33,617 bases of DNA, taken from Armatimonadota bacterium. Lineage in GTDB: Bacteria > Armatimonadota > JAAZEB01. Location of the stretch: assembly GCA_012512505.1 (NCBI GenBank), contig JAAZEB010000263.1, forward strand, positions 1 to 33,617. The letters run 5' to 3'. This document shows, piece after piece, positions 6,951 through 30,024 of this stretch. The notes below the pieces were generated by a model. The model had not been told where the DNA came from, searched no databases, and worked only from the letters and a program-made list of their open reading frames with translations. Positions within the stretch are counted from its first letter, which is position 1. Every line of letters begins with the position of its first letter. The position numbers and the translations under genes are program-made.

Positions 6951-9900
6951 CTAGGCGCCGAGAAGGGTGTCGGGGCCGAGCAGCTCCTCAACGCGCCGCC
7001 GGAGCTCTGGGGCGGCCTCAATCCCGATGTCGCTGCACTCAATCGCGTAGCGGTCGCCGGGCGCGGCCTCCACGTGCAGGAGCAGACGGCGATCCCCGGG
7101 GTGCGCCAGCACCACCGCCTGCAGCTCGTTCAGGATACGGGCACGCATCGCGGCGTAGGGAACGCGGATGATGACCGGCTCCCCCTGCGGAGTGGCCGGG
7201 CCCTCTTCCTCGGACGCGGTCGCTCTCCCAAAGGAGGCGCCATTGCCGTTCCCGTTGCGGTAGCCGTTGCCGTTGCGGCGGCCGTTCTCGTGGCCGTTGC
7301 CGTTGGCCACGGCCTCCCCCTTGGTCGGCTTCGTCACCGGCCGCACGCTTTCGGCGATGATCTCCACCTGTCGGCGTGCCGGCTGATCATCCTCCGACGC
7401 CTCGTCCTGGCCGTTGTCCTTGGAGCTGACTTTGCCCTCGACGATCACCACCGCGTCTTGCTGCATCAGCGAGCCGTGTTCCTGGAAGACGCTGGGCCAT
7501 AGGATCACCTCCACGGTGCCCAGCCAGTCCTCCAGCGTGGCGACCATCATCGGGTCGCCCTTGCGCGTGGTGATGCGGCGGGCGCGCGCTACCATCCCGC
7601 CGACACGCACGATCTCCTTGTCGTCGCGTTCGGCGACATCCTGGGTGGTCAGCACCTTGGCGCGTTCGAGGGCCGGGCGGTACTCCATCACCGGGTGGCC
7701 GTTCAGGTAGAGGCCGAGCAGCTCCTTCTCGCCGGCGAGCAACTCTTCTTTCGGCAGCTCTGGGATCTCAGGCAGGGGCTCCTCGTGGGCCGATGCCTCC
7801 TCGGCCGGACCCCCGAGCAGGTCCAGCATCGAGTACTGGCCGACCTCCTTCTCCTTGCGGGTGCGCAGCCCGGCGGCAATCGCCTGGTCGACGACCGCCA
7901 GGAGCTGGCTCCGCCGCGCCCCCAGGCAGTCGAGCGCCCCGGACTTGATGAGGCACTCGAGGGTGGCGCGGTTCAGCGTGCCGCTGTCGCCCAGGCGGGC
8001 GCAGAAGTCGAAGAGAGAGCGATAGGGGCCGTTGGCGCGCTCGGCGATGATCTGCTCGATCGCGTGGTGGCTGACGTTCTTGATCGCGGCCAGCCCGAAC
8101 CGGATTGCGAGGGTGGCCGCCGGCGCCTCCCCCGTGCCTTGGGCCTTGGCCCCATCGCCGGCGTAGGGGACCACCGTGAAGTCGGCCTGGCTCTCGTTCA
8201 CGTCCGGGGGCAGCACCGGGATCCCTTGCCGACGCGACTCCTCCACGTAGGTGACCACCTTGTCCTTGTTCTCCATGAAGGCGGTGAGGAGCGCGGCGTG
8301 GTACTGCACCGGGTAGTTGCACTTCAGCCAGGCGGTCTGGTACATGAGGAGGGCATAAGCGGCGGAGTGGCTGTTGTGGACGACCATGTCGTTGGCCACG
8401 AAGTTGTGGGTGTCGTCCACCGTCAGGTCATAGGTTGCCTCCCGGCCGGCCGGTTCGATGGCAACGACCTCGTCCCAGTACACGTCCGAGTGGGCTAGGC
8501 GCGCCAGCGGCTCCGAGTGGAGGTAGTCGGCGATCCGCGCGAAGGTCTCCCGACGGTAGCCTTTCTTCTTCGCCGGGCTCACGCGCCAGAAGTTGCGTTC
8601 GCTGATGCCCATCGATCGGGCCATCCCCTTGAGGCTACCGGAGGCGTGCGCACCAATCTCCTGTCGCAGCAGGCCGAAGGCGGCGTAGGGGATCAAGTCG
8701 CAAGTGCCCCGGGCGACGGTGTCGGGAGGATTGCCGCAGAGGAACGGGTGGCTCTGCCTGAGGCGCTCGGCGTCGCGGGCTCGTGGGCCTACCAGGTGGG
8801 GTGCTAGGTACTGGAGGAAGGCACGCAGGTTCGGGTAGCCGCAGACGTGGACGGTGAACCCCTTCCGGCTTCCGCCGCGGTAAGCGAAGCGCTTCTCGTG
8901 GAGGGTCGACTGGATCCCCAGGCGGAGCAGGAGGTGCTGAACCTGGCGCGCCAGCGTCTCGGATGACGTTGCGTAGTAAGACAGCCTGTTCCGGGCATCG
9001 ATGCACCCGTCTCCCACCCACAGCTTGGCGAGGAGGAAGGCCAGGTCGTCCTTGCACAGCGAGAACACCTCCTCGGGGAGGCGCTTCTGAACCGACGTCT
9101 TCCCCAGCAACCCCATTCGGCCGAGGAACTCCCTGGCGGCATTCGGTCTGCCGGGCTGCCGGTTTCGGCTGGCCGCGTGCACCTCATACTTGCCCCGACG
9201 CTCCGTGACGACAGCGCGTGTGCCCTCGAACTGCTCGAGAGACGACACGTAGTCCTCTAGTTCCTCACGGTCGCTGGTGTAGTAGTAGAAGGTGGTGGGA
9301 TGGCAGGTGTTCCCCTCGGCGGTCACGTAGGCGAGCACCGCGAGTTCGTGGCGGGGCATGTGGCCGTTGAGGTCCAGCGGCAGGCAGCGCGGCAAGGCGA
9401 TCCGGTCGCCCGCAGACAACTCGCCCAGCGGCCGCCAGCCATCGATGGTGAGGAACGGGTGATTGGCAGTGGCCTTGATCTGCCGGCCAGTGCGAGTGCG
9501 GAGGAGGAAAACCTCCTTCACCCCGTTCTCGTGGATCCCCGATACCTGGCCGGGGCGCAGCTTGAAGTCATGCCCCAGCGTCAGGATCTCGCCGCACTCG
9601 CCTTGAGCGTGGAGCTTGTCAAGAGGAACGAGCCGGCCGTCGGCCATCAGGATGAGGGTGTCACCGGTCAGGCACTTGTTGAAGCCGTACTTGGCGAAGT
9701 TGGCCATCAACTCGTAGATCTGGTCGGCCGTCTTCTCGGGAACGCCCCGCTCCTTGGCCCCGGCAATGAAGAGCGGGCGGTTCTTGTCCATCACCGCCTG
9801 CTGCTTCTTGCTCATCGCCTTCATGAGCGTTTCGGCCTGCACCGCGTCGAAGCCGCCCATCACCATGGCGATCCGCATCACCTGCTCCTGGTAGAGGAGG

Positions 9901-11909: not shown

Positions 11910-12116
11910 CAGTGCAGAACCTTTCGCTGCAATAGTTCCCCCGCGTTGGGCCTCTCCCTCTCGCCCGCGGGGGGCAAAACGGGGCAGCCGGTCGCCTGGG
12001 TCGCAAGCAGGTGGCCCAGGCCGCGCACCGCGGGCGGAGAAGCCGACCGCGCGCGGTGGGGCGCCCAAAAACATTATGTTGGGGTGCGCCGGCAGCGCGC
12101 GCCCTATATATTGGGC

Positions 12117-12853: not shown

Positions 12854-12991
12854 GTAGTGACCGCCATGTAAAGGCGCGGAATCGATGGGGAGTGGGCATT
12901 CCGGCGGGCCGGGGCCGAGGCGCTGTCGGCGAACTTCCGCAGCCACTATGCTTCGGGCCGCGGGTGCCCCCGGTACCCGGCGCAGTGCCCC

Positions 12992-13017
12992 CCGCTCTGG
13001 GCCGCGCTCCAGAGCGG
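12992..13017 (-). terminator. Possible terminator hairpin after polA
   Basis: A perfect 9-bp stem (CCGCTCTGG, 12992-13000, with 13009-13017) and an 8-nt loop lie 38 nt after the polA stop codon. No T-tract follows on the - strand, so intrinsic termination is uncertain. The rest of the 372-nt gap between polA and the RRM gene holds that gene's promoter and leader; I see nothing else in it. Confidence 0.4.
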
Positions 13018-13054
13018 CGCGCACCCACGTGCCCCCCGATCCCAAGCAATGGGT

Positions 13055-15811
13055 TTACTTGGCGGACATCCAGTCGGGGCCGGTGCCGGCATCGGCCTTG
13101 ATGGGCACCCGCAGGGTCATTGCCCGCTCCATCTCCTCGCGCACGAGGGTGGCGAGTTGGTGCTGTTCGGCGGCCGGCGCCTCCAGCACCAGCTCGTCGT
13201 GGATCTGCAGCAGCAGCTTCAGCGGCAGGTGCTCGCGCTCGATGCGGCGCTGCAGGTTCACCATCGCCACCTTGATCAGGTCAGCCGCGCTGCCCTGCAC
13301 CACCGAGTTGATTGCCAGACGCTCGCCCAGGCTGCGCTGGTTGGCGTTGGGCGAGCGCAGCTCAGGGATGGCCCGCCGCCGCCCCAGGAGCGTGGTGACG
13401 TAGCCGTGGTCCACGGCGTGCTGAACGCACTGCGCCAGGAAGCGGTCGATGCCGGGAAAGCGGCGCTTGTAGTCGGCGATGAGCTGGGCGGCGGCGGCCA
13501 CGTCGAGGCCCTCAATCCGGCGGGCGAGGCCGAACGGCGTGACGCCATAGATGATGCCGAAGTTGATCGTCTTCGCCTGGTTGCGCTGCTCGCGGGTCAC
13601 TTGATCGGCCGGTGTGCCGAAGACCTGCGCGGCCACGGCGGCGTGGATATCGAGGTCGCGGGCGAAGGCGTCGAGGAGCGCGGCGTCCTCGCTCAGGTGG
13701 GCCAGCAAGCGCAGCTCGATCTGGGAGTAATCGGCGGAGATGAGCACCTGGCCGGGAGGCGCCACAAACGCCTTGCGGATCTGGCGGCCGATCTCGGTGC
13801 GCACCGGGATGTTCTGCAGGTTGGGGCCCTGGGAGGCCAGCCGGCCGGTGGCGGTAACGAGTTGATGGAAGGTGGTGTGGATCCGACCGGTGCGGGGGTC
13901 GATGGCATCGCGCAGGTTGCCCAGGTAGGTGCCGATCAGCTTGGCGAGTTGGCGGTATTCGATGAGCAGCCGCGGCACGCTGGTGCGGGGATCGCGGCGG
14001 TCCTCCAGCGCCGCCAGCCGCTCCAGCACCTCGATGTCGGTGGAGCGGCCGGTCTTGGTGCGCTTGCTCGAGGGAAAGCCGAGGCGGTCGAAAAGAACCG
14101 TGGCCAACTGCTTAGGGGAGTCGAGGTGGAACTCGCACTCGCAGAGAGCGTAGATCTCGCGGCGCAGTTCGGCCACCCGGCCCTCCAGCACTGCTCCCTG
14201 GCGCTGCAGCTCCTCCGGGTCGCAGCAGATGCCGTTGGCCTCCATCTCGGCGAGGACCACGGCGAGGGGGGCCTCCACGTCGCGCAAGAGCGTGCCCATC
14301 CCCACCGCGTCGAGCCGGGGGAGAAGCGCCTGGGCCAGGCGCAGGGCGATATCCGCATCCTCAGCGGCGTAGGGAACCACCGCGGCCAGGGGCACCGTGT
14401 CGATGGCTGCCTGCTCTGGCCCCTCCCCGATCAGGTCGGTGAGCGGGATCATCCGGTGGCCGAGCACGTCCAGGGCCAGGTCCTCCAGCTTGTGGCTGGG
14501 GCGCTCCGGGGCGAGCAGGGTGCTGGCGAGCATCGTGTCGCAGATGGCGCCGCCGAGCCGCACGCCGTAGCGCCGCAGCACGCCCGCGTCGAACTTCAGG
14601 TTGTGGCCGCACTTGGGCACGCGGGCATCTTCCAGCACCGGCCCCAGCACGGCCAGCACCGCCGCGGTATCGAGGTGACGCTCTGGCTCCGGCGAGCGCG
14701 TCGGCACGTAAACGCCCTGGCCCGGCTGCCAGGAGAAGCTGAGCCCGCACAGCGCCGCGTCGCGCTCCAGCCCGGTTGTCTCGGTATCGAGGCTCAACAG
14801 CGGCTGGGCGCGAAGCATGGCGGCCAGCGCCTCCAGCTCGGCCAGGGTGGTGATCGCCCGATACTCCACGGGCCCGGTGACGGCCACGGGCACCCCGGCG
14901 ACCGGCAGGGACGAGCCGTTGGCCGCATCGGGCCGGCCCTGGGAGAGGCGCCGCACCTCTTCGCGGAAGCGGTTGAAGCCGAGTTCATCAAAAAGGGAGA
15001 ACACCTGCTCGGCTGGGAGGGGGCGCACGCGCGCCGTCTCCAGGGCGAACGGCACGTCGGCGTCACGCTTGAGGGTGACGAGCGTGCGCGCGAGGGGCAG
15101 CGTTTCCCGTGCCTGGAGCAAGTTCTCGCGGCGCTTGCCGGGGATCTGGTCGATGGCGGCGTAGATCCCCTCCAGGGAGCCGAACCGCTGGAGGAGCTGC
15201 GCGGCGGTCTTGGGGCCGATCCCTGGCACCCCGGGAATGTTGTCCACGCTGTCACCGGTCAGCGCCAGCAGATCCACCACCTGCTCCGGGGCGATCCCTT
15301 TGGTCTCCCGCAGTGCCGCCACGTCGAGGGTGGTCTCCGTGTGGATGTCGAAGAGCGCCACGCGCTCGCAGAGGAGCTGCTCCAGGTCCTTGTCTTTGGA
15401 GACGAGGCGGATCTGCACGTCGGCGTGGGCAGGGTCGTCCAGCACGCGTTGGGTGAGGGTCGCGATCACATCATCGGCCTCCACGCCTGGGCAAGAGATC
15501 ACCGGGATGCCGAAGCGTTGCACCAGTTCGAGGACGCGTGGGATCTGCGCGCAAAGGTCGTCGGGGGCGGGAGCGCGGTTGGCCTTGTAGTCGGGGTACA
15601 GCTCCTCGCGGAACGTTTTGCCCGGGGCATCGACCACCACCGCGAGATAGTCCGGCCGCTGCTGGGAGAGCAGCTTGAGGAGCATGGCGGTGAAGCCGAA
15701 CACGGCGTGCGTGGGCTCGCCGGTCACCGGGCTATGCATCCCGCCACGGATGGCATAGTAGGCGCGGAAGATCTGTGCGTGTCCGTCGATGAGGTAAAGC
15801 GTTTCGGGCAT
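13055..15811 (-). CDS. polA: DNA polymerase I, three-domain
   Basis: This 918-aa protein is full-length Pol I, used in Okazaki-fragment processing and repair. The 5' nuclease domain (1-290) has LIDGHAQIFRAYYA, the DYKANR motif (74-79), GVEADDVI and VPGIGPKTA. The 3'-5' proofreading domain (about 315-500) keeps its catalytic acids: LDTETTG (Asp342, Glu344), NLKFDAG (Asp408) and YAAEDAD (Tyr481, Asp485). Proofreading should therefore be active, unlike in many Pol I enzymes that lost these residues. The polymerase domain has DYSQIELR (motif A), KTINFGIIYG (motif B) and QIHDELVLE (motif C). AGAGGA lies 5 nt before the ATG. The gene is divergent from the enolase-superfamily gene at 16091 across 279 bp. 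Confidence 0.98.
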   Translation of the reverse strand: MPETLYLIDGHAQIFRAYYAIRGGMHSPVTGEPTHAVFGFTAMLLKLLSQQRPDYLAVVVDAPGKTFREELYPDYKANRAPAPDDLCAQIPRVLELVQRFGIPVISCPGVEADDVIATLTQRVLDDPAHADVQIRLVSKDKDLEQLLCERVALFDIHTETTLDVAALRETKGIAPEQVVDLLALTGDSVDNIPGVPGIGPKTAAQLLQRFGSLEGIYAAIDQIPGKRRENLLQARETLPLARTLVTLKRDADVPFALETARVRPLPAEQVFSLFDELGFNRFREEVRRLSQGRPDAANGSSLPVAGVPVAVTGPVEYRAITTLAELEALAAMLRAQPLLSLDTETTGLERDAALCGLSFSWQPGQGVYVPTRSPEPERHLDTAAVLAVLGPVLEDARVPKCGHNLKFDAGVLRRYGVRLGGAICDTMLASTLLAPERPSHKLEDLALDVLGHRMIPLTDLIGEGPEQAAIDTVPLAAVVPYAAEDADIALRLAQALLPRLDAVGMGTLLRDVEAPLAVVLAEMEANGICCDPEELQRQGAVLEGRVAELRREIYALCECEFHLDSPKQLATVLFDRLGFPSSKRTKTGRSTDIEVLERLAALEDRRDPRTSVPRLLIEYRQLAKLIGTYLGNLRDAIDPRTGRIHTTFHQLVTATGRLASQGPNLQNIPVRTEIGRQIRKAFVAPPGQVLISADYSQIELRLLAHLSEDAALLDAFARDLDIHAAVAAQVFGTPADQVTREQRNQAKTINFGIIYGVTPFGLARRIEGLDVAAAAQLIADYKRRFPGIDRFLAQCVQHAVDHGYVTTLLGRRRAIPELRSPNANQRSLGERLAINSVVQGSAADLIKVAMVNLQRRIEREHLPLKLLLQIHDELVLEAPAAEQHQLATLVREEMERAMTLRVPIKADAGTGPDWMSAK

Positions 15812-18620: not shown

Positions 18621-20363
18621 TCAGGCAGCCTTGCGCGTGCCGATCACCCGGCGAAGGTCGCCGACGGCGCGGCGGAGACGAGCCGGGCGGAACAGGAAGG
18701 CCAGGTACCGCCAGGGGGAGCCGCGCAGCGGACGGATTGTCGCGATCGCCGTCGGGCCGGGTAGGAAGGTTTGCTGGATGCGGCGTAGCCGCCAGCGGAA
18801 GGGCAGGAAGGGGAATTGGCGCCCGAGAACTGCCAGGCGGTTTCCCACGAGGCCAGGACGGGGGATCGGGCTGCCCGTGCCTGCCCGGCGTCGCTCGAGC
18901 GTGGGGGCATCGGGGCAGAGCGCGGCGATCACCGTTTCCGGCACCGGCGCCTGAAGATACTCCCGCACCCACCACAGCGTGTGCCCCACCACGAGGCTTG
19001 CCCTGGCCGCCCGTGCGCGCGCGATCACCAGGTCCCAGTCCACCGCGTGCTGCTTCGTCAGCTCCGCCACGTCGCAGAAGCCATGCAGGCTCAGCGCGCC
19101 GTGCTGGAAGAAGTGCAGGGCCAGGTAGACCAGGTTGTCCTCCACCGCCAGGATGTGCGCGGGCGCGCCGGCAATCGTCACCTGCCGCGACCGTTGCCAC
19201 ATCGCGGCAACATCGAGCTGGAACGGGCGGTGCGGCCCGGCGAGGCACCAGTGGGCCTCAACCGGACTGGCCGCCTGGGGATGCGTGAAGCTCAAGTGGT
19301 GACCAACGCGCTCCTGCGGTGCGCGCGTGGCTGGATCGGCTTGGCGGGGGCTGTAGCCCAGGCTGGTGAGCAGCGCCTCGACGCGGGGGAGCTGCCCCGG
19401 AGGCGCCAGCACGTCCAGATCCGACATCGGGCGCAGGCCAAAGCTCCCGTAGACCAGCTCGGCGAGCGCGGCACCCTTCAGGACAACCAGCGGCTGGCCG
19501 GCTTCGGCCGCTGCCATCAGCAGAGAGCGCAGTTGGCCGCGCAACCGGAGGCCACGCAGGGCGGCGGCGTGGGCAAAGCGCTGAAGAACGGCTCGCTGCG
19601 GCTCCGGCACGGCCTGCCTGAGACCCTGCTCCTGGAGGTGGTGGTACAACAGCGGTCCAAGGCCCTGGTCACACGCGACCCGGAGAACGGCGGACCAGTC
19701 GACCCGCCCGGTGACGAGGGCGGCAAACGCCTCCCGCTCGTCCGCCGGGAGCCGAACCCGCGCGGCCAGCAGCAGCAGGCGGGCCTCGGCGGTAAGCTCC
19801 GGCCGGGCAGCGGAGACAGGGTGGCAGCCTGCCCAGAGGCGGAGGAAGGCGCGCAGAGGGAGAGCGGCCGCTATTCTCCCGGCCCGGCGCAGAACCCGAG
19901 CCGGGATGCGTTTGCTTCGCCGCAGGCCGCGGGGCGCCAGCCGCCCCAAGGCACCGTAGAACAGTGACTGCCAGCGTGAGAGCACGGCTGCCCCCACGGC
20001 CAGCCAGGCGGAGCCGCGGCCGTCCAGCCGCACGACGCGACCGCCACGGTGGATGGCGACAACCCTGGCGATCACCTGGTTGGAGAGGATCGGGGCATCA
20101 CAGGCGCGAGCGCGGTCGCCCTTCGTGATCAGTTGGCGCGGGGCATCCGGGCGGCCCCGATGCATTGCCACGATGCGGTGGGCGATGCTGACGCCGCCAG
20201 CCCGGAACACCACCACGTCGCCGAGGCGCAGCGCGCGCGGGAGCAGCTCCACTTCGAGGCGATCCCCCGGCTGGAGCAGGGGCATCATGCTGCCGCCGGT
20301 GACCGGAAGCGTGGCGGCGGGCTCTGCCCCGGTGTCCGGCGCGGGGGGTGCCTGCAACTCCAT
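18621..20363 (-). CDS. Fusion: S24/S26 peptidase + NTP_transf_5 nucleotidyltransferase
   Basis: This 580-aa protein joins two domains. Residues 18-105 are an S24/S26 (SipW-like) peptidase: GGSMMPLLQPGD gives nucleophile Ser25, SIAHRIV gives His62 in place of the usual Lys, and LITKGD (78-83) with Asp89 follows. There is no N-terminal membrane anchor. Residues about 190-560 look like the NTP_transf_5 family: VLKGAALAELVYG (294-306) and RPMSDLDVL (311-319), with metal-binding-type Asp315 and Asp317. A basic linker (about 140-165) separates them. Both domains are often encoded as separate neighbours near PqqD and HprK-like genes. The frame opens to 20561, but that part overlaps the pseudopilin gene; ATG 20363 leaves a 37-nt gap. 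The Shine-Dalgarno is weak. Possible roles are leader removal plus nucleotidyl transfer to the peptide; this is inference. Confidence 0.82.
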   Translation of the reverse strand: MELQAPPAPDTGAEPAATLPVTGGSMMPLLQPGDRLEVELLPRALRLGDVVVFRAGGVSIAHRIVAMHRGRPDAPRQLITKGDRARACDAPILSNQVIARVVAIHRGGRVVRLDGRGSAWLAVGAAVLSRWQSLFYGALGRLAPRGLRRSKRIPARVLRRAGRIAAALPLRAFLRLWAGCHPVSAARPELTAEARLLLLAARVRLPADEREAFAALVTGRVDWSAVLRVACDQGLGPLLYHHLQEQGLRQAVPEPQRAVLQRFAHAAALRGLRLRGQLRSLLMAAAEAGQPLVVLKGAALAELVYGSFGLRPMSDLDVLAPPGQLPRVEALLTSLGYSPRQADPATRAPQERVGHHLSFTHPQAASPVEAHWCLAGPHRPFQLDVAAMWQRSRQVTIAGAPAHILAVEDNLVYLALHFFQHGALSLHGFCDVAELTKQHAVDWDLVIARARAARASLVVGHTLWWVREYLQAPVPETVIAALCPDAPTLERRRAGTGSPIPRPGLVGNRLAVLGRQFPFLPFRWRLRRIQQTFLPGPTAIATIRPLRGSPWRYLAFLFRPARLRRAVGDLRRVIGTRKAA

Positions 20364-20400
20364 CGTCTGTCGTGTTGCCTTTCTGAACCCGGCGTCTGCC

Positions 20401-21066
20401 TCAGTAGATGCGAACGTGCGTTGCGGTGTAGTAGCCGTCGGCCCGCACCGTCCGCACGTGCCCGTCGGCGAAGAGCAGGTTGGCATTCCGACGGTGCCAG
20501 GCAGCGGCATCCACAAACACGTTGATCTCGGCTGGTCGCGGCAGCGACGGCACCGAGACATGACTGAGCGCCAGCTCCGTGCGGTAGATGTAGCTGGTGC
20601 CGAAGCTCTCGAACACCGAGGTGCAGTTGGGCGTATAGCGCCACCCGATGTCGCCGGGGCAGTGCCACACGCGCGGCTCGCCGGACAGGTAAGGGAGCAG
20701 CACCTGGTCGATGTTGGTGTTGGTCGGGTGTGCCGCGATCAGGCGCAGCACCTGCTCGTGGTACGACTCACCGGTCCACGGGTTGTAAGCGTTGCGCCAC
20801 TGGTTAGGGTTCAGGCGGTCAGTGGGATCCAGCCCATAGGGAAAGAGGCAGTCGTAGTCCTCGTGGTAGAGCTGGATCGCCTGCCCAAGCTGGCGCAGGT
20901 TGGAGGTGCAGGTGGCCTGCCGGGCGCTGTGCCGGGCGGAGGCCAGCACCGGCAGCAGCATCGCCGCCAGTAGGCTGAGGATGGCCACCACCACCAGCAG
21001 CTCGATCAGTGTAAACCCTGCTCGGCCGCTGCCACTCCCCTTGGCCCAGCCAGTCCGTGCCCTCAT
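20401..21066 (-). CDS. Type IV pseudopilin-like protein with H-X9-DG motif
   Basis: This 221-aa protein starts with a prepilin leader and a GFTLIELLVVVAILSLLAAM segment (residues 17-36), cleaved before Phe by prepilin peptidase. Near the C-terminus is HRRNANLLFADG, an exact H-X9-DG motif. This is the DUF1559-type architecture abundant in Planctomycetes, Armatimonadota and Lentisphaerae, where many paralogs per genome are usual. The globular part has conserved-looking QLGQAIQLYHEDYD, and a WHCPGD segment typical of the family. The start at ATG 21066 is set by the prepilin motif; GGAG lies 14 nt upstream. It follows the small peptide gene by 74 nt on the same strand. The paralogs' functions are mostly unknown; it probably sits in the inner membrane facing outward. 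Confidence 0.92.
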   Translation of the reverse strand: MRARTGWAKGSGSGRAGFTLIELLVVVAILSLLAAMLLPVLASARHSARQATCTSNLRQLGQAIQLYHEDYDCLFPYGLDPTDRLNPNQWRNAYNPWTGESYHEQVLRLIAAHPTNTNIDQVLLPYLSGEPRVWHCPGDIGWRYTPNCTSVFESFGTSYIYRTELALSHVSVPSLPRPAEINVFVDAAAWHRRNANLLFADGHVRTVRADGYYTATHVRIY

Positions 21067-21140: not shown

Positions 21141-21341
21141 CTAGAGTTGCTCTAGCATCTCCAGAACATCCGTGTCCATCGTGTCGAAGCTGAACCCTGT
21201 CCAGCACGCCCGGACCGGCCCCAGCCGCTGCAGCAGTTCTTCCTCCGAGTAGAGGATGACCTGCGGTGGGGTATAAGGCAACCGTTCCTCCACCGGCTCC
21301 GCCGTGGGGGTATTGGCACTGGGGTGTCTGTTGTCTGTCAT
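21141..21341 (-). CDS. Candidate RiPP precursor peptide (66 aa)
   Basis: This is a 66-residue peptide with a strong Shine-Dalgarno (AAGGAG, 7 nt before the ATG), so translation is likely. Residues 1-20 are polar and probably unstructured. Then comes YTPPQVILYSEEELLQRLGP (23-42), which has the look of a RiPP recognition sequence: a Pro-containing beta strand that could add to a PqqD-like fold, followed by an acidic helix. The C-terminal part, RACWTGFSFDTMDTDVLEML, has a single Cys (46), aromatic residues and several Asp/Thr. There is no GG cleavage motif and no signal peptide. It lies 54 nt after the C25 peptidase gene and upstream of the pseudopilin and peptidase/nucleotidyltransferase genes. 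That it is the substrate of the radical SAM enzyme about 6.5 kb upstream in the same run of genes is inference. Confidence 0.7.
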   Translation of the reverse strand: MTDNRHPSANTPTAEPVEERLPYTPPQVILYSEEELLQRLGPVRACWTGFSFDTMDTDVLEMLEQL

Positions 21342-21395: not shown

Positions 21396-23642
21396 TCATT
21401 CCGATTGGGTGCCCGGCTGGCTGGCGTTGCCCGCGGCGGCGGGCCAGCGCAGGCGAAGCGCGGGATCGCCCAGCAAGACGTAGGTCTCTACTGGATCCCA
21501 GCGCTCCCAGCTCCGTGAGGTGATGAAGACCCGCCGCGCCTCGCGGAAGGCGACGCCGATCGGGGTTTCCCGGTGCTCCAGCAGGTAGGGCACCAGTTCC
21601 CGCGCTAGGTCGAGCCCGCCCATCCGCGATGGCGAGATGCAGGCAATGGCCCCACCCTGGGCCGAGAGCAGCAGGCTTTCGGCCAGGCAGTGTGTGCCCG
21701 GGGTGTCTGGCCGGTCGAACCACCCGGTGAAGCAGGTGATATCGATGCACAGCGGCGGCAGGGCAGACGCCGGTGCCTTCTGCAGGTCGCGCGCTTCCAG
21801 CACCTTTTGCCCCGCCCAGTAGCGGTCGCCGCCGTGCCCATGGTAGACCAGCAGAACACCCCCCTCCTTCAAAAAGCGCTGCACCCGGGGGGTGAACGTT
21901 TGGCGAACCAATCGCGTGCGCTCGTTATTGGGCAGCTTGGGGTCTACCGTCCGCAGCGCCAGGACTTCTGCTTCCACCTGCGCCTGGCGGCACTGCTCGG
22001 CCAGGCGTTCGATGCTGCGCTCGAAAAGACCCACCGTCGTGTTGTTGGTCTCGTGGTCGGCCACCAGGAGGGCACGCGCCGGGCCCGCCGGGGGTTCGCC
22101 CTGCTCGTAGCGCAGGATCTTGGCGACCACGGCGGCCGTCTCCTCCGGGGTGCGCACCGGCAGCCGTCCCACCGCCAGCTCTGGCTGGTGGTCGTCATCC
22201 ACGCAGCCGAAGTACCAGTCGGTCGCCGGGGGGATGTTGCCCGAGACCGGCGCCAGGTAGGAGGGCACCAGGTTGGGCACGCCCGTCTTCCGATAGTCGC
22301 GGTAATCGTAGTTGGCGTCGCCCACCAGCAGCAGGAAGCCGGGCGCCGGCTTTTGCCACCGCTGGGAGGCATAGCGCACGAAGGTCCGGATGGCCGCCGG
22401 GGTAAACACCCCCTCGCCGAACTCGTCGTAGATCTCGCTGACGGGGGCCACGTAGACGCGCATCCCCTGCTGACGGCGCCACTCCAGCAGCGGCTGCAGT
22501 GCCGGGATCAGCGCGTCCGCCGCAACCACCAGGTAATCGGCCCCCAGCGCGGGGTCGCGCAGCCCGGAAGGCTCGTCTTTCCGCACCCAGAGGGGGGAGT
22601 ATGGTTCGCGGCTGGCCAGGATGCGGCGTCCGGCCCCGGGCGCGAGCAGGGTCAGCGCCTGCTGCCGTGTCACCCCTGTCAGGCGCACTGGCGCGAGCGG
22701 CTGGCTGACATCCAGCAGGATCGGCTGGGGTCCGAGGCCGGCGATGGCGTAGGTCGCCTGCCGGTTTGCCCCTTTTGGGGTGCGGAGTTCGAGCTGGCTT
22801 CCGGTCAGCGTCAGTTGACGCGGGTAGGTGAGCTCCACCCAGTCCAGGAAGACCTGGTCTACCTCGCCGGCAGCGGTGTCTCCCGGGCACTCAATGGCAA
22901 GGGTGTTCTGCCCCGCCCGGATCGCACCCGCCGGGAGGTCTGCGGTGATGCGGTGCTCTACCTGGCCGTCCCAGGTGGCGTCCTCCAGCAGCCGTCCATT
23001 CCAGAACACACGGGTGTGGTGGTCTGGGTTGGCGGTGAAGGAGAGCGTGTTGCCAAACAGCGAGACCACCAAGCGGCCGGCCGCGTTGGCGGCGGGCTGC
23101 GGTGGTGTGATGGTGAACTCCTGGCGCTGCTTGGCGGGGACCAGGCGCCAGAACCAGTGTGGCACCTTTTCCGGTTGGGCGGCATAGAACAGCTTGCCGT
23201 AGGTGCGGTTCTCCTCGAAGCGGACGGTGGTCGACACGGCGCGCGCCGCACGGCCGTTCCCTTTGGGGGGAGCGGCCGTGCGAGAGGCAATGCGCCGACC
23301 TGGCGGACCCCCGTAGGCCAGCCAGTAGACGTTTGTGTCGGTGTACTCGGTATCCAGGCCCTCGCCATAGAAGAGGAGCGCGTCGCCAGGATCAAAGCGT
23401 CCGTCGGCCGCTCCCGTCACCAGGAGGGCCACCGGACGCCCGCCGCAGCCAGCGCGGATCGTGCGCGGGTTGACCTTCGCCAGCGGCAGGCCCGCCGCCG
23501 CCAGCTCGGCGCCCGTTACCCGGTAAAGCCCGGTGCGGTTCACCCCGATCTTCCAGTGGCCGTCGGCGTGCGCGCCGGCCGCGGACAGCAGCAGCCCTAC
23601 TGCTCCGACGATCCATCCGGTTCGCGTTGCCATTCTGGTCAC
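21396..23642 (-). CDS. Secreted C25 (gingipain-like) cysteine peptidase
   Basis: This 748-aa exported protein has a signal peptide (GWIVGAVGLLLSAAGAHA, about residues 9-26). A beta-rich N-terminal region includes a carbohydrate-binding-like sandwich (about 140-270). The caspase-like C25 peptidase domain covers about 365-740. The catalytic pair is His603 in VYHGHGGDRYW and Cys637 in CIDITCFTGW; their 34-residue spacing matches gingipains. The end, VLLGDPALRLRW, is typical of the family. There is no type IX secretion C-terminal domain, so export is probably by Sec alone. I chose GTG 23642 because AGGAG lies 5 nt upstream; ATG 23633 is the alternative. The gene lies directly upstream of the precursor-like peptide and could process that or surface proteins. 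Confidence 0.9.
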   Translation of the reverse strand: MTRMATRTGWIVGAVGLLLSAAGAHADGHWKIGVNRTGLYRVTGAELAAAGLPLAKVNPRTIRAGCGGRPVALLVTGAADGRFDPGDALLFYGEGLDTEYTDTNVYWLAYGGPPGRRIASRTAAPPKGNGRAARAVSTTVRFEENRTYGKLFYAAQPEKVPHWFWRLVPAKQRQEFTITPPQPAANAAGRLVVSLFGNTLSFTANPDHHTRVFWNGRLLEDATWDGQVEHRITADLPAGAIRAGQNTLAIECPGDTAAGEVDQVFLDWVELTYPRQLTLTGSQLELRTPKGANRQATYAIAGLGPQPILLDVSQPLAPVRLTGVTRQQALTLLAPGAGRRILASREPYSPLWVRKDEPSGLRDPALGADYLVVAADALIPALQPLLEWRRQQGMRVYVAPVSEIYDEFGEGVFTPAAIRTFVRYASQRWQKPAPGFLLLVGDANYDYRDYRKTGVPNLVPSYLAPVSGNIPPATDWYFGCVDDDHQPELAVGRLPVRTPEETAAVVAKILRYEQGEPPAGPARALLVADHETNNTTVGLFERSIERLAEQCRQAQVEAEVLALRTVDPKLPNNERTRLVRQTFTPRVQRFLKEGGVLLVYHGHGGDRYWAGQKVLEARDLQKAPASALPPLCIDITCFTGWFDRPDTPGTHCLAESLLLSAQGGAIACISPSRMGGLDLARELVPYLLEHRETPIGVAFREARRVFITSRSWERWDPVETYVLLGDPALRLRWPAAAGNASQPGTQSE

Positions 23643-23647
23643 GTCTA

Positions 23648-23995
23648 CTCCTGCTTCCTGGTTGCTTGGGTTACTTCCCGCGTTTCCCCCGGGAACTGGC
23701 GGCCGGTGCCGAGACAGAGACCGGCGCCAGGCGCTGCACCCGGCCCGAGGTGTGCCGCACTTCCAGGCAGTAATACTGCCCTGCCCGGCCCCGCGCGCCG
23801 CCGTCCACAAAGCGGCAGGTACGCGACCCGGGGGGAATCAGCCGGGGGGTGACCCGGGTGAACGGACCCTCCAGGCGGGCCGCGCGCAGCACATGGTAGC
23901 CGGCGACATCGCTGCCTTCCTCGGGCGTCCACTCGACGGTTACCTTGCCGGAGGGCGCCCGGGTGGCACGCAGACGCCCCACCGCGGCCGCCAGG
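23648..23995. repeat. Direct repeat, copy 1 (348 bp)
   Basis: This segment aligns without gaps to 25382-25729 (offset 1734 bp). I count about 15 mismatches over 348 positions. It covers the last 108 codons of one IPT/FN3 gene plus the following spacer. The upstream parts of the two genes are far more divergent. Confidence 0.93.
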
Positions 23996-24957
23996 GGTTC
24001 CCCAACGGCGAAGGCGTTCTTCAGTTCGCCCGAGTCATTCGTGCCCGGGTAATCGACGACGATGTTGTAGATGCCCTCCGTTTTGCCTAGGAGGTCAAAC
24101 GTGCCGGTGATCTGGGTGTTGTCCGGCGACACGGTGACGTTGGTGGCAGTGATCTTGGAAGACTCGTCCCCCTCCAGATACATGTGCAGGGTTGCGCCCT
24201 CGTAGAAGTGGGCGCCGGTCACGGTGACATCCTGCGGTCCGGTGTTCGGGGCGGCCTGGGGAACCACTTTCTCGATCTGAGGCCGGAACACCAAGCGTAC
24301 GACCGGTTGCAGGTTGGTTCCCTCTGGCCCGGGCCAGCCCCCGCCTTCCTCCATGACAGTGGCATAGAGGGTCCGCTCCGTGCCCAGGCCTGAGGCCGCG
24401 CAGGTGGCTGCGGGTGTGCTAGTGGTGTTGTTCTCCAAGGCGAACCCGATCAGCAGGTTTCTCACACCATCATACGTGAACGGCGTGGTGAAGTCGAAGC
24501 GGAGCCAGCCCGTTTGGCTCACGGATATATTCCCTGAGTAGACCAGCGGCCATGGATCCCCTGTATCATCATCTGGCCAGATGGGCACATTCATCTCCGT
24601 ATGGTCCATCTGTATCTCAAACTGCCCGCTCAATGGCGCCGGGAGTTCGGTCACGTTCAGCTCCAGGGCGACGATCTCGCCCCCCCTGCCGATCTCATTC
24701 TGGAGATAGACAGACAGGGTGCGGGCTGCGGAAACCGCCGTGTTGAGGGGGTACTCCCAAGTTGTCGGGGTACCGCTTTCGCCGATCACCTTCCCTTGCG
24801 CGGCGGCGGGGCGAGTGCCAGCGCAGAGGAGGGCGCCCAGGGCCAGGAGCAGGATCCCGGTCAGGCGGCGGCCAGGCGCGCGGCGCGCCACGGGAGCGCA
24901 CCGGAGGAATGCGCGTCCGGCGGGCCGGACGCAACCTTGTGGCAGGAACAGGTGCAT
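23671..24957 (-). CDS. Secreted IPT/TIG + FN3 domain protein (copy A)
   Basis: This 428-aa exported protein has a long basic N-terminal region with a hydrophobic core (GILLLALGALLCAG, 34-47) and a likely cleavage site near AAAQ (51-54). A jelly-roll-like domain follows (about 58-225, with GWLRFDFTTPFTYDG). An IPT/TIG immunoglobulin-like domain covers about 228-318, and an FN3-like domain about 323-415, ending in a basic tail (SSRGKRGK). Such proteins usually mediate surface binding or adhesion. AAGGAGGT lies 7 nt before ATG 24957, which fixes the start. It is a paralog of the gene at 25405, with which it shares its ribosome site, first residues (MHLFL) and an almost identical C-terminal block (321-428). 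The C25 peptidase gene follows after 28 nt. Confidence 0.85.
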   Translation of the reverse strand: MHLFLPQGCVRPAGRAFLRCAPVARRAPGRRLTGILLLALGALLCAGTRPAAAQGKVIGESGTPTTWEYPLNTAVSAARTLSVYLQNEIGRGGEIVALELNVTELPAPLSGQFEIQMDHTEMNVPIWPDDDTGDPWPLVYSGNISVSQTGWLRFDFTTPFTYDGVRNLLIGFALENNTTSTPAATCAASGLGTERTLYATVMEEGGGWPGPEGTNLQPVVRLVFRPQIEKVVPQAAPNTGPQDVTVTGAHFYEGATLHMYLEGDESSKITATNVTVSPDNTQITGTFDLLGKTEGIYNIVVDYPGTNDSGELKNAFAVGEPLAAAVGRLRATRAPSGKVTVEWTPEEGSDVAGYHVLRAARLEGPFTRVTPRLIPPGSRTCRFVDGGARGRAGQYYCLEVRHTSGRVQRLAPVSVSAPAASSRGKRGK

Positions 24958-25039
24958 CGGTGGAACCTCCTTCTTCACTCGCCACTGCCGGCAGAGCGCA
25001 AGCGCCGCGCGCCGGCAGCGGCCGGTACCATTGCGGTGC

Positions 25040-25390: not shown

Positions 25391-25729
25391 CCTGGTTGCT
25401 TGGGCTACTTTCTGCGTTTCCCACGGGAACTGGCGGCCGGTGCCGAGACAGAGACCGGCGCCAGACGCTGCACCCGGCCCGAGGTGTGCCGCACCTCCAG
25501 GCAGTAGTACTGCCCCGCCCGGCCCCGCGCGCCGCCGTCCACTAAGCGGCAGGTACGCGACCCGGGGGGAATCAGCCGGGGGGTGACCCGGGGGAACGGA
25601 CCCTCCAGGCGGGCCGCGCGCAGCACATGGTAGCCGGCGACATCGCTGCCTTCCTCGGGCGTCCACTCGACGGTCACCTTGCCGGAGGGCGCCCGGGTGG
25701 CACGTAGGCGCCCCACTGCGGCCGCCAGA
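25382..25729. repeat. Direct repeat, copy 2 (348 bp)
   Basis: Partner of the segment at 23648-23995, aligned without gaps. Weaker similarity continues past its low-coordinate end into the decayed C25 start. This shows that the original duplication covered both the IPT/FN3 and the C25 gene. Confidence 0.93.
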
Positions 25730-26706
25730 GGCACGCCCCCGTCCTCCACAACGAGCCGACCGGGTTGCTCATCCGAAAGGCCGTCCGGATTGGTGATGAG
25801 CACCCCGTAGAATCCCAGCGGTGCTCCGGTGAGGTTGAAGGTGCCGGTGATCTGGTGATCTTCCGTCACGGAGACGTTGGTGGCGGTGATCCGGCCCTCC
25901 GGCCGCGTCAGCTTCAGGGTGGCGCCCGCGTGGATGTGGGTGCCGGATACCGTAATCGTCGCCGGCGCGTCGTTCTTCACGGTGGCTGGGCTGGCGCCAC
26001 CCACGTGAGGCCCGACTAGCAGCCGCACGTTCGGTCGTTCATCAGCGGGACCAGGCGCTGGGAGGGGGTTCCCTGACACCACGACTTGGGACGTGAGGGA
26101 GCGTGTCTCTTCTGTTGTTGATGGAAGGGACGACCGGCACAGACCAGCGAGCACGCGCTGCAGGCTGGAGAGACTGAACTCCACCAGCAGGTTGCGGGTG
26201 CCGTCGTAGGCAAACGGCTCATCGAACACGAATCGGCGCCAGCCTGTCGTGCCGGCTGGCTCACTCTCTCGGTAGTAGACTTGCACCCAATCCCCATCCA
26301 TCCAGGGGCGCGGCTTCCCCCCTCCCGGGTCAGGTGGAACGATAGATTGCTCGGTATGCGCCATTCGGATCGTCCAGTGATCGAGCGCTCGGGATGGCGC
26401 CCGGGACACATCCAGGTCCAGGGCGAGGATGCTCCCGCGAGTGCCGACCTCTGTCGCCAGGTAGATGGTCTGGCAGCGAGCCGCGAACGCTTGGGTGTTG
26501 AGGGGGAAAGCCCATGGCGACTCGCCGGTACCAATCGACTGCTCGTGGGCGCTGGCGGGTGGGGCGCCGGCGCCGAGGAGGGTGAGCAAGGCCAGGGGCA
26601 GTGCCCCGGCATGCCGGTAGTCTGGCGCGCGGCGTGCGTGGTGGGCACACCGGCGGAGGGCGCGTCCGGCAAGCCGGACGCGGGCGGGCAGCAGGAACAG
26701 GTGCAT
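25405..26706 (-). CDS. Secreted IPT/TIG + FN3 domain protein (copy B)
   Basis: This 433-aa paralog of the protein at 23671 has the same order: basic N-terminal region, hydrophobic signal core (ALPLALLTLLGAGAPPASA), jelly-roll-like domain (GWRRFVFDEPFAYDG), IPT/TIG domain (TVKNDAPATITVSGTH onward) and FN3-like C-terminal domain with a basic tail (SSRGKRRK). GGGAGG precedes the ATG. Jelly-roll and IPT parts are clearly divergent from copy A, while the last 108 residues differ at only three positions. It lies 75 nt downstream of the HprK-like gene on the same strand. Divergent outer domains on a common base would suit different binding targets; that is inference. Confidence 0.85.
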   Translation of the reverse strand: MHLFLLPARVRLAGRALRRCAHHARRAPDYRHAGALPLALLTLLGAGAPPASAHEQSIGTGESPWAFPLNTQAFAARCQTIYLATEVGTRGSILALDLDVSRAPSRALDHWTIRMAHTEQSIVPPDPGGGKPRPWMDGDWVQVYYRESEPAGTTGWRRFVFDEPFAYDGTRNLLVEFSLSSLQRVLAGLCRSSLPSTTEETRSLTSQVVVSGNPLPAPGPADERPNVRLLVGPHVGGASPATVKNDAPATITVSGTHIHAGATLKLTRPEGRITATNVSVTEDHQITGTFNLTGAPLGFYGVLITNPDGLSDEQPGRLVVEDGGVPLAAAVGRLRATRAPSGKVTVEWTPEEGSDVAGYHVLRAARLEGPFPRVTPRLIPPGSRTCRLVDGGARGRAGQYYCLEVRHTSGRVQRLAPVSVSAPAASSRGKRRK

Positions 26707-26781: not shown

Positions 26782-27867
26782 TCAGTACTCGGAAGGCAGG
26801 GTGGTGCCGCGGCCGCGGCAAAGCGAGTCCACCAGCGCGACGGTAGCGGCCAGTGGCCCGGGCCGCAGGCTTATGGGCACCGTGTCCTGCAGAACTGCTC
26901 CTAGCTCCTTGAGAAAGGGGAATAACCCCCCTTGCGGGGTGTTGCCGCCGGGCCGGTTCAGGGCGGCGGCGGCGAGCGACAGCCAGGCGGCCGACGGCGC
27001 TATTGCCTCGGCGCGTGGCGGCGCCTCAAAGCTGGGCCGCGCGGTCGGCGCAGTGTCGGTGCCCAGCAGCAAGACGTTCTCCTGCTGGCACGCCTGCGCC
27101 CAACGCCGCAGCGGCCCAGGTGAGAGAACTCGCTCCCAGGAGAGCGTCACGAATCCCTCGCTGGCGGCTACCCGAGCCCCGGCCAACTCGGGGTCGGTGG
27201 CGAGCCTCCGCGTGAGGGCCGGGGTCAGGTGGCTCACGGCCACGCGGCTCGGCTCGGTCTGTGCACTGGTCGGCAAGATGAACACGTGCCGAATCGGCAC
27301 CTTCAAGTGCGCGATCTCCGGCTGCCAGCAGAAGCGCGTCTCCTCCCCCGCGAGCGACCAGGGCTGAGACCGCTCCCGCAGCTCCGGCAGCAGGCACAGC
27401 GTCTGTGGGCGGATGAGCACCCCCCGGGGGAACGACTCCAGGAGGCCGGTGGTCCGGTCGATCGCGGCCACCTCATCCGACAGCCACTGGTAGCCCTGTC
27501 GCGAGAGGGCCAGCGCCAGGGTAGTCTTGCCGGCGCCGCTCTCGCCCACGATCAGCACGCCGCCATGCGGGCCGGCCAACGCCGCCGCGTGCAGCAGCCA
27601 GTGGGTGCTGACGCGAGTCACGATCTCGGTGAAGATCAACTCCTCCGCCAGCGTCTCTCCTGCCCCCGGCGCGGCCAGTTGGCGGGTGCTGCCGCAGCTG
27701 ATGGCGCGCACGCCCGCCGCCGCCGAGACCTGCAGCCGCAGCGGTGCCGCGGCCGATACCGGCACCAGCGCCGGCCGGTAAAGATACGCGAGCGCCTCCC
27801 ACAGCCGGTCGCTGTCGCACTCAACCACCGCCTCGGAATCGAGAAATCGCAGACCAAGGGAGGGCAC
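26782..27867 (-). CDS. HprK-like P-loop kinase of a PqqD/radical SAM cluster
   Basis: This 361-aa protein resembles the HPr-kinase C-terminal (HprK-related) family. The Walker A motif is GESGAGKTT (108-116) after LLHAAAL, and LSDEVAAID (129-137) follows as in HprK/P. The N-terminal 80 residues are divergent and do not look like the classical HprK N-domain. Such HprK-related proteins sit next to PqqD-like and NTP_transf_5 genes in HPr-rel-A-type systems and are related to kinases that phosphorylate RiPP precursors. Its substrate here is unknown; the 66-aa peptide is a candidate. GTG 27867 starts 4 nt after the radical SAM gene stop, with GGGAG about 10 nt upstream, so the two are translationally linked. 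The frame stays open to 28044, but this overlaps the radical SAM gene. Confidence 0.82.
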   Translation of the reverse strand: MPSLGLRFLDSEAVVECDSDRLWEALAYLYRPALVPVSAAAPLRLQVSAAAGVRAISCGSTRQLAAPGAGETLAEELIFTEIVTRVSTHWLLHAAALAGPHGGVLIVGESGAGKTTLALALSRQGYQWLSDEVAAIDRTTGLLESFPRGVLIRPQTLCLLPELRERSQPWSLAGEETRFCWQPEIAHLKVPIRHVFILPTSAQTEPSRVAVSHLTPALTRRLATDPELAGARVAASEGFVTLSWERVLSPGPLRRWAQACQQENVLLLGTDTAPTARPSFEAPPRAEAIAPSAAWLSLAAAALNRPGGNTPQGGLFPFLKELGAVLQDTVPISLRPGPLAATVALVDSLCRGRGTTLPSEY

Positions 27868-27871
27868 GGCG

Positions 27872-29242
27872 TCAGGACTCCCTCGCCACCGGCGACGCCT
27901 GCCGGCGCTCCTCGGCCCAGCCGAACAACGTCTGCGCGTAGTACTCCCGGCGGACGGCGCAGAGGTCATCGTGCTGCCACCAGTCTGCCTGGTGCAGCCA
28001 GGCCAGGCCGGGGCAGGACGCGCGACAGTAGCGGCGCCACTCACAGGCCCGGCATTCGGCGATGCGCTCTACTCGGGCGGGCACCAGCGCCCGCAGTTGC
28101 CGGGCCGCCGGCGAGGCGAGCGCCGCCGCCAACCCCTCGGCCTCCGTGTTGCCGAGGCGGTAGCGGGCATCCGCCAACAGGATGCAGGGGTAAACGCTGC
28201 CATCCACATCGATGAGCGCGCACTCCCCGGCTTCCAGCGGGCAGGTGGTCTCCCGGGGATCGCCACAGCCCGCCACGACGATCCGCTCGTGGTGCGCGCG
28301 CAGCAGCGGGCGCAGGGCGCGCACCAGGGCCACGCGCTCCTCGGCGAAAGTTGAGAGTTGCTCCCAGTTTCCGACCGCGCAGCCGCGGGGCGCCAGCCAG
28401 ATCAGGTAGAGGCGGCCGACCCCGAGGGTGAACGCCTGCTGGGCCAGCGTGCTGATATGCGCCAGGTTGTGGCGGTTGACGCAGGTGCTCCACGTCATGC
28501 GCGGCACAACGCCGCGATCCAGCAGGCGCTGGATTCCCGCCATCGTTCGGGCGTAGGCGCCCGGCCCCCTCAAGGCGTCGTGGGTCTCCGCGTCTGGTCC
28601 ATCCAGGCTCACCTGAACATGCACCCCGGCGTCGGCGAGGAAGTCGGCCGCTTCCTCACTGACCAGGGTGCCGTTGGTCACCACCGTCACCTCAAACCGC
28701 GCGGTGGCCGCGCTCACGATCGAGCGCCACTGCGGGTGGGTGAGGATCTCGCCGCCCGTCAGGACGACCGACACGGCCCCCGCGGCCTGACACTGGTCGA
28801 GGCGTGCCTGGAGGACGGGGAAGGGAACCGGCCGCCCTTGCAGCACCCCTTCGGAGGCGGGCGACTGGAAGCAGTGCCGGCAGGTGAGGTTGCAGCCGGC
28901 GGTGGTGTGAAGGGTGACGCGCAGCCGGACGGCGGTCTCCTCGCGCGGGCGGCACTCCGGCGCGGGGGTGGGCCGCTCGTCCAGCAGCAAGCCGGCCCGC
29001 TGCAGTTGCTGGAGGTAGCGGGAGACATCTTGCTCCGCGCGCTGCACCGTCACGGCATAGCGCCGGGCCAGGTCGCGCGCCAGATCACGCCAGCTCACCT
29101 CCCCGGTGCAGCTTTGGGCCAGGCGGCAGCCGAGCGCATCGACCACGCACCAGGTGCCCCGGGCCGGGCTGAGGAGCAGAAAGAGGTCTCCCTGCTGCTG
29201 GATGGTGGTATCAGGCAGCAAGCGCGGGTGTTCAGGGAGCAT
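27872..29242 (-). CDS. Radical SAM/SPASM peptide maturase with N-terminal PqqD-like domain
   Basis: This 456-aa protein begins with a PqqD-like winged-helix domain (about 1-90, ending LLLDE), used in RiPP systems to bind leader peptides. The radical SAM domain has CNLTCRHC (Cys117, 121, 124) for the 4Fe-4S cluster, LTGGE (161-165) and VSLDG. The C-terminal SPASM region binds auxiliary clusters through Cys334, 341, 353, 397, 400, 406, 410 and 428 (CALIDVDGSVYPC, CRACEWRRYCRASC). This architecture is typical of enzymes such as PqqE and sactionine or ranthipeptide synthases. GGAGGAGG lies 8 nt before ATG 29242. It overlaps the end of the small PqqD gene by 11 nt, which implies translational coupling. 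The modification made is unknown. Confidence 0.92.
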   Translation of the reverse strand: MLPEHPRLLPDTTIQQQGDLFLLLSPARGTWCVVDALGCRLAQSCTGEVSWRDLARDLARRYAVTVQRAEQDVSRYLQQLQRAGLLLDERPTPAPECRPREETAVRLRVTLHTTAGCNLTCRHCFQSPASEGVLQGRPVPFPVLQARLDQCQAAGAVSVVLTGGEILTHPQWRSIVSAATARFEVTVVTNGTLVSEEAADFLADAGVHVQVSLDGPDAETHDALRGPGAYARTMAGIQRLLDRGVVPRMTWSTCVNRHNLAHISTLAQQAFTLGVGRLYLIWLAPRGCAVGNWEQLSTFAEERVALVRALRPLLRAHHERIVVAGCGDPRETTCPLEAGECALIDVDGSVYPCILLADARYRLGNTEAEGLAAALASPAARQLRALVPARVERIAECRACEWRRYCRASCPGLAWLHQADWWQHDDLCAVRREYYAQTLFGWAEERRQASPVARES

Positions 29243-29564
29243 TGGGGGGCCCTCCTCCAGGGCCGCCATCAACCAGGAGACCGGCCGCGTGGAGGCTGGC
29301 GACCGTTGCGGCCACCTGCGCCTCGATGTGCGGCTCCGCCGCGGTGTCGAAGCGGGCGCGCACGGCGGCGCTGATGTCGGCCACGCTCCGCGTGCCATCG
29401 CACTGCTGCCAGATGAAGTGGGCCGTGCGATTGAGGACCCCTACCTGACCGCTGGTCTGGTGGTAAAGGAGAACTTCGTGGCCGAGTGACTGTTCCTGGA
29501 CGGTGGATTCCCGCAGGGGAAGGGATGGCGAAGTTGGGTTCTTGGGCATCGGCGTCATGTCCAT
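29232..29564 (-). CDS. Stand-alone PqqD-like RiPP recognition protein
   Basis: This protein of about 110 aa is PqqD-like over residues 30-97: HEVLLYHQTSGQVGVLNRTA, then FIWQQCDGTRSVADISAAV and a helix ending AAGLLVDG. Such proteins bind precursor leader peptides and present them to the maturase. The first 20 residues are Pro/Met-rich and look disordered; the last ten are Gly/Pro-rich. The start is unclear: ATG 29564, 29558 and 29549 and GTG 29576 are all possible, and none has a good Shine-Dalgarno. It is the first gene of the 11-kb - strand block, and the next gene begins inside its last codons. It resembles the PqqD_rel_X type of HPr-rel-A systems. Confidence 0.82.
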   Translation of the reverse strand: MDMTPMPKNPTSPSLPLRESTVQEQSLGHEVLLYHQTSGQVGVLNRTAHFIWQQCDGTRSVADISAAVRARFDTAAEPHIEAQVAATVASLHAAGLLVDGGPGGGPPNAP

Positions 29565-30024
29565 CGTTGCGAACACAAGGCGTTAGCAGACAGACGCGAC
29601 CTTTGGTAGGTAGGCCGCGGGAAACATCCCACGCGCGAGGCAGGAGACCATTGTGCCTCAGCACTGCGCCTGGGTGCACCTGGCCGGGGGATGCCTCTAG
29701 CTCCTGCCGCCGCCGCGTGTTGGCAGCAACCGCCAACGTCTCACCCACCCACTTCGCGGTAAGCTTCCGACTCTCCTGTGGCTGCCTCTGTGAATTTGCT
29801 GCCTTGATGGCGAGGTTTTGCCTTGGGGCGCGGGAGTGCGCCCTGCAGAAGGCAGGCCGGGACGGAGAACGGCCCCTACGCAGCCGGGTGCGGTGAGCGT
29901 GAAGGCGCCCCTCCGTTCGCGCTTGCCAGTGGCCCGCCGTACTTCCATTCCTGAGCATTCATCCCCGTTTGCAGGGGCTTCACCGGGGCGAGGAGTGCCG
30001 AGCCGTTGGCGCGAAAGGGGAGCC
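29565..30024. other. Divergent intergenic region of the RiPP-like cluster
   Basis: These 460 nt separate the first gene of the - strand block from a + strand hydrolase. I find no convincing -10/-35 pair on either strand and no coding sequence with a ribosome site. Weak structures are present: GTTGGC/GCCAAC around 29718-29737 and GGGCGC/GCGCCC around 29826-29843. The promoters for both directions should lie here. Confidence 0.5.

Follow-up and report, generated by a model that had tools for sequence, protein, structure and literature searches.

In a 33,617-nucleotide contig of an Armatimonadota bacterium (the whole stretch analysed here, hereafter the window), a short open reading frame lies among genes for a radical SAM enzyme, a kinase and leader-binding domains. 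Is it the substrate of these enzymes, and what kind of product would they make from it? The initial annotation had proposed a precursor peptide at 21141–21341; the ORF proved to be real, but on the minus strand, with its start at 21341 and its stop at 21141.

A short gene between a C25 peptidase and a pseudopilin

The ORF encodes a product of 66 residues (MTDNRHPSANTPTAEPVEERLPYTPPQVILYSEEELLQRLGPVRACWTGFSFDTMDTDVLEMLEQL) and occupies the gap between the stop of a C25 peptidase gene (21396) and the start of a pseudopilin gene (21066), all three being co-directional. A strong ribosome site had been claimed, and a Shine-Dalgarno sequence (AGGAAGGAG) is indeed present ~8 nt upstream of the ATG. 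The polar N-terminus, Pro-rich strand, acidic helix, Gly-Pro break (G41-P42) and lone cysteine (Cys46) were all as previously described. Among 136 mechanical ORFs of 45–120 aa in the window, the pattern [YW]xxPx[LVIAFY] was present in seven, and only in the 66-aa peptide was it accompanied by a ribosome site; the longer pattern YxxPxVxx[YH] was found in this peptide alone. The gene and its neighbours are listed below in the direction of transcription.

29232–29576, minus strand: discrete PqqD-like protein (RRE); PF05402, 2.7e-15; 47% to the G226 copy
27872–29242, minus strand: PqqD fused to radical SAM and SPASM; PF04055, 5.4e-22; PF05402, 1.5e-9; PF13186, 1.6e-8
26782–27969, minus strand: HprK-like kinase, start approximate; TIGR04352, 5.5e-13, below the curated cut-off
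25405–26706, minus strand: secreted protein with shared C-terminal domain, copy B; from the window ORF and cluster comparison
23671–24996, minus strand: secreted TIG/fn3-type protein, copy A, sharing this C-terminal domain; start position approximate
21396–23642, minus strand: C25 cysteine peptidase (PorU/gingipain type), start approximate; PF01364, 8e-73
21141–21341, minus strand: putative precursor peptide, 66 aa; from homologues and ribosome site
21204–21275, minus strand: leader recognition segment Y23–C46, YTPPQVILYSEEELLQRLGPVRAC; conserved block, 17/24 identical to G035 and G226
21144–21206, minus strand: proposed core from the invariant Cys46, CWTGFSFDTMDTDVLEMLEQL, core start predicted; variable tail, single Cys at fixed spacing
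20401–21066, minus strand: dedicated DUF1559 / H-X9-DG pseudopilin; 62% and 59% to the other two cluster copies
18621–20384, minus strand: fusion of an archaeal-type signal peptidase I domain with NTP_transf_5, approximate start; TIGR02228, 3.9e-11 (below cut-off); PF14907, 1.8e-57

Related clusters and the anatomy of the peptide

Homologues were sought in 291 Armatimonadota genomes, the one phylum searched in depth. Two peptides scored well (G226, E = 5.6e-17; G035, E = 2.9e-8), and a divergent one was present in G265. The former two stand in complete clusters (loci L011 and L056, respectively) with the same gene set as the window in near-identical order, and the three clusters come from genomes of three different families. 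In the window the order, from ~29.6 to 18.6 kb and all on the minus strand, is PqqD-like protein, PqqD–radical SAM–SPASM enzyme, HprK-like kinase, two secreted proteins, C25 peptidase, peptide and DUF1559 pseudopilin, after which the cluster ends in archaeal-type signal peptidase and NTP_transf_5. In G226 and G035 it is PqqD, PqqD–radical SAM, HprK, C25, an S8 protease with the shared C-terminal domain, peptide, pseudopilin, S26 and NTP_transf_5; the window, in contrast, has two non-protease carriers of that domain, placed before the C25 gene rather than after it. The divergent peptide of G265 lies at the end of a contig, next to a C25 peptidase, and a radical SAM enzyme of the cluster subfamily was not found in this 85% complete genome, where the cluster is cut by the contig end.

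Across the 291 genomes, the subfamilies of the radical SAM enzyme (E < 1e-130; next match 1e-37), the HprK-like kinase (E < 1e-170; next 7.6e-14) and the pseudopilin (E < 1e-120; next 1e-55) were each represented in exactly the three genomes with the complete cluster (G000, G035 and G226), three counts that are mutually dependent since the genes travel together. A profile scan of genome contigs with a narrow pattern matched contigs of G226 and G265 and no other phylum; an earlier contig scan with a single peptide as query had returned no matches. Weak profile matches (E 0.007–0.1) were dismissed as chance on translation, since no plausible short gene among them contained the motif, and matches at L009 and L010 turned out to be unrelated secreted proteins.

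Each pair among the window, G035 and G226 precursors shares 17 of 24 residues over Y23–C46, and pN/pS over the codons of this segment was 0.26–0.39, pointing to purifying selection on the leader (in codon comparisons with the G265 precursor, divergence was too high to tell selection). Past the cysteine, the window copy is identical to G035 and G226 at one of seven positions and then at none of 13; the corresponding figures for G035 versus G226 are 6/7 and 2/14. All four precursors carry exactly one Cys, 23 residues past the Tyr of YxPP (Y+23). Because the leader is conserved, the tail variable and the single Cys fixed, this is the anatomy of a RiPP precursor: a short ORF adjoining modifying enzymes, with a conserved leader and a variable core. 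Together with the shared cluster synteny, these features bear out the precursor idea of the initial annotation, which had also suggested looking for short ORFs like segment 23–46 near such enzymes elsewhere; such ORFs adjoin PqqD, HprK and radical SAM genes in two complete clusters and one partial cluster, and two looser relatives lie by other HprK/PqqD/S26 clusters.

In its own genome the peptide gene is present in one copy, and Pfam and NCBIfam scans of the peptide and its relatives gave no matches; with the shortness of the ORF, a single copy per genome and the lack of family matches are what could be said for a chance ORF or an unrelated small protein. Against this stand the homologues, which keep the synteny and the leader block, have ribosome sites and are under purifying selection. 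A chance ORF is effectively excluded, because the homologues occupy the corresponding place in like clusters. The ORF very probably supplies the unmodified peptide from which the neighbouring radical SAM enzyme, kinase, peptidase and two leader-binding domains would make a small product.

Modifying enzymes and comparison with known systems

The two PqqD-like domains and the HprK-like kinase named earlier as partners of the peptide were recovered; the archaeal-type signal peptidase and the nucleotidyltransferase had been missed, as had the parallel with LPPs, the linear polyphosphorylated peptides of Bacillota first described in 2026 (Popov et al. 2026, PMC13381572). In LPP systems the kinase transfers phosphate to Ser3 of the core, and leader removal is the work of the SpI-like LppS, aided by the RRE; LppK rejected S3T (PMC13381572). 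According to its authors, the set of RRE, HprK, signal peptidase and NTP transferase is restricted to Bacillota (PMC13381572). This paper alone was relevant in a literature search for radical SAM/HprK/signal-peptidase RiPPs.

In the Armatimonadota clusters, the P-loop and SDE motif of the HprK-like kinase are kept in all three copies, and the signal peptidase domain, whose best solved match is SEC11A, has its Ser, His and Asp conserved in five copies. The leader strand YTPPQV fits the motif [Y/W]xxPx[L/V/I/A/F/Y], leaders of which type are bound by PqqD-type RREs through beta-strand addition (PMC13381572; PadeB1, PMC5067487). AlphaFold models from two-row alignments were too poor to use (pLDDT 60 for PqqD and 41 for HprK); in Foldseek, the poor pLDDT-60 PqqD model ranked TbiB1–leader complexes first at a non-significant E of 0.17.

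We consider it fairly probable that the cluster makes an LPP-like RiPP with a radical SAM modification and that the peptide is its ribosomal precursor. This reading is favoured because three genomes, each from a different family, have the same gene set in almost the same order; because RRE, HprK, archaeal-type SpI and NTP transferase constitute the LPP core set; because a leader under purifying selection, followed by variable tails, carries the RRE-binding motif; because the SpI Ser, His and Asp are conserved; and because a similar short peptide occurs in two further HprK/S26/PqqD clusters of the phylum. All four components of that core set, including a discrete PqqD-type RRE, were found here, and the precursors resemble those of LPPs in size, YxxPxV leader, variable C-terminus and patchy distribution.

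Unlike LPP clusters, those described here belong to Armatimonadota, contain an extra PqqD–radical SAM/SPASM enzyme, encode an invariant Cys and have a pseudopilin as well as C25/S8 proteases in their operon. Several observations count against the LPP-like reading. The LPP leader pattern YxxPxVLxHQxIxFETxxS is matched only in YxxPxV, the Armatimonadota leader reading YSEEELLQRLGPxRAC with HQxIxFETxxS absent; no MsbA-like transporter was recognised, whether in the window (outside the cluster its ORFs were read, not all of them scanned with HMMs) or among the genes kept in order between clusters; and the LPP cut leaves Tyr at -16, whereas the cut proposed below would leave it at -23. Furthermore, the presumed phospho-acceptor is Thr in the window and out of line in G265, no radical SAM enzyme of the family was found in G265, and the HprK, S26 and radical SAM matches lie below NCBIfam equivalog cut-offs, so that assignment is at superfamily level only. 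On sequence grounds the system is LPP-like, yet we do not file it as LPP, since the transporter and most of the leader motif were not found; the cluster is better described as a putative new LPP-like RiPP variant, with predicted chemistry, cleavage site and role.

Under the LPP-like reading, the YxPPxV strand of the leader would dock by beta-strand addition, either on the stand-alone PqqD protein, on the PqqD domain of the radical SAM enzyme or on both, as motif and domain families suggest. The radical SAM/SPASM enzyme would then act on the core, Cys46 being the likeliest site or origin of the modification (a thioether, for instance), and the HprK-like kinase would phosphorylate a hydroxyl residue just past the Cys: core position 3 (Cys46 being 1) is S in two copies, T in the window and R in G265. 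Decoration of this phosphate may fall to the NTP_transf_5 domain. The archaeal-type signal peptidase would cut off the leader, perhaps at AxA/C46 (the slash marking the cut; V-R-A/C46 in the window); with a cut before Cys46, position -3 is V or A and position -1 is A or G in all four precursors. The LPP cut geometry (Tyr at -16) was rejected, as it falls on no conserved site in these precursors, and GPxRA/C was preferred as the predicted site. The product would finally leave the cell and meet the secreted C25/S8 proteases, the proteins with the shared C-terminal domain and the dedicated pseudopilin.

The radical SAM enzyme itself allows other readings. Its alignment shows CX3CX2C and the full SPASM cysteine pattern CX(9-15)GX4C...CX2CX5CX3C...C; its nearest solved structure is the sactisynthase SkfB, and the G226 copy scored best with the sactipeptide maturase StsB (132 bits); the mycofactocin maturase was also among the better radical SAM matches. 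The affinities to SkfB and StsB, the PqqD–radical SAM–SPASM architecture and the invariant single Cys would suit a sactipeptide- or ranthipeptide-type precursor with one Cys46 thioether, the kinase, NTP transferase and signal peptidase being minor or serving something else. The maturases of that group (StsB, SkfB, AlbA) do share the RRE–radical SAM–SPASM arrangement, SPASM cysteines included, and a core Cys. However, the present system has a single Cys and a kinase, NTP transferase and SpI, and its enzyme scores below the curated family cut-offs; kinase, S26 and NTP_transf_5 are kept in all three clusters, and HprK, S26 and PqqD clusters with similar peptides surround other enzymes. We regard this alternative as unlikely.

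A cofactor or redox carrier of the PQQ or mycofactocin kind, in which the peptide is mostly scaffold and a small Cys/aromatic piece survives, would account for the pairing of PqqD with a radical SAM/SPASM enzyme, the mycofactocin maturase match and the poorly conserved tail. The core of such a carrier should be conserved, yet the residues past the Cys differ between genomes, and the conserved cluster contains secreted proteases instead of a dedicated dehydrogenase partner; we hold this reading to be highly improbable.

Two further families were compared. The phosphorylated lasso peptides paeninodin and pseudomycoidin (PMC8498205, PMC5067487) share with the present system a PqqD-like B1, an HprK kinase, a nucleotidyltransferase and the [Y/W]xxPxL leader motif, but a radical SAM enzyme takes part here instead, and a lasso system was rejected because the cluster genes had no B2 protease or macrolactam cyclase match in Pfam/NCBIfam. 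As for the SynChlorMet (Scm) cassette, the PqqD-like protein is near ScmD (1.3e-8) and the radical SAM enzyme near ScmE/ScmF; the NCBIfam Scm models comprise two radical SAM enzymes (ScmE, ScmF), whereas one is present here, accompanied by SpI and NTP_transf_5. The cassette was likewise rejected, with ScmD at 34.9 bits against a cut-off of 100, ScmF at 108 against 400, and one radical SAM gene in the cluster.

Secreted neighbours and wider family

An ABC exporter was recognised neither in the syntenic part of the clusters nor elsewhere in the window, where ORFs beyond the cluster were read through and not every one scanned with HMMs. Of the cluster proteins compared, the pseudopilin shows the highest conservation. 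Copies A and B of the secreted protein have nearly identical fn3-like C-terminal domains ending in RGKR(G/R)K, and a homologous domain ends the S8 protease of the G226 and G035 clusters. Against the type IX sortase PorU model NF033707, the C25 peptidase scored 1.2e-76, below the curated cut-off and outside Bacteroidota.

The modified peptide could instead be a signal or ligand of a surface or secretion system with the C25 (PorU-like) peptidase, C-terminal domains and pseudopilin, no diffusible natural product being made. In support, C25, C-terminal-domain proteins and the dedicated pseudopilin adjoin the peptide in all complete copies, and the pseudopilin has the conservation noted above; nevertheless, genomes of this kind commonly encode C25, S8 and DUF1559 proteins, and what links the peptide to them is gene proximity. 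This seems to us very unlikely. A bolder form of the LPP-like RiPP reading is a new Armatimonadota RiPP class in which radical SAM chemistry at an N-terminal Cys (AxA/C cut) and HprK/NTP-transferase phosphate chemistry would be combined with C25/S8/pseudopilin-coupled maturation or display in place of an ABC exporter; we offer it tentatively, as possible but doubtful. The conserved pseudopilin and secreted proteases in the exporter's place pose an unusual question about the release or use of the product.

Short peptides whose leaders have this same shape were also found in HprK/S26/PqqD clusters of G257 (KWSKPVVKSYKEKELLAKLAAKAQ), adjoining a radical SAM/SPASM gene and a PMT-type glycosyltransferase, and of G076 (YEKPAISSYTEAELLESM), adjoining a P450 and an acyltransferase-domain gene. 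Two putative precursors beside such clusters, one with a radical SAM gene and one with a P450 gene, are located as follows.

L074, 9675–9815, minus strand: putative precursor
L077, 12747–12878, minus strand: putative precursor

Because these clusters carry like-leader peptides beside different enzymes, the RRE–kinase–signal-peptidase set appears to serve as a platform for several different primary enzymes (radical SAM here and in G257, P450 in G076). The set of RRE, HprK, signal peptidase and NTP transferase is hereby extended beyond Bacillota to another phylum, the little-known Armatimonadota. With precursor, leader motif and fixed Cys now named, the chemistry is open to direct co-expression testing.

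A few separate observations were made along the way. L065 encodes, at 12930–13160 on the plus strand, a putative precursor with an YEPPRVLDLGELGEQ leader and two Cys-containing PGNSP repeats, with PqqD and two radical SAM genes nearby (Scm-like). G282 has a YEPPRV precursor near a two-radical-SAM cluster, and L066, a locus with two radical SAM genes and a PqqD gene, holds a short ORF beginning MTYEKPVLISLDDISGPDIGPGGCGMG at 3556–3723 on the minus strand. Elsewhere in the window, the DnaE (DNA polymerase III alpha) ORF at 6951–12074, minus strand, contains an apparent in-frame intein (NK/CLTGDTLILMADG ... NFVANDMVVHN/SHSAAYALL, slashes marking its ends).
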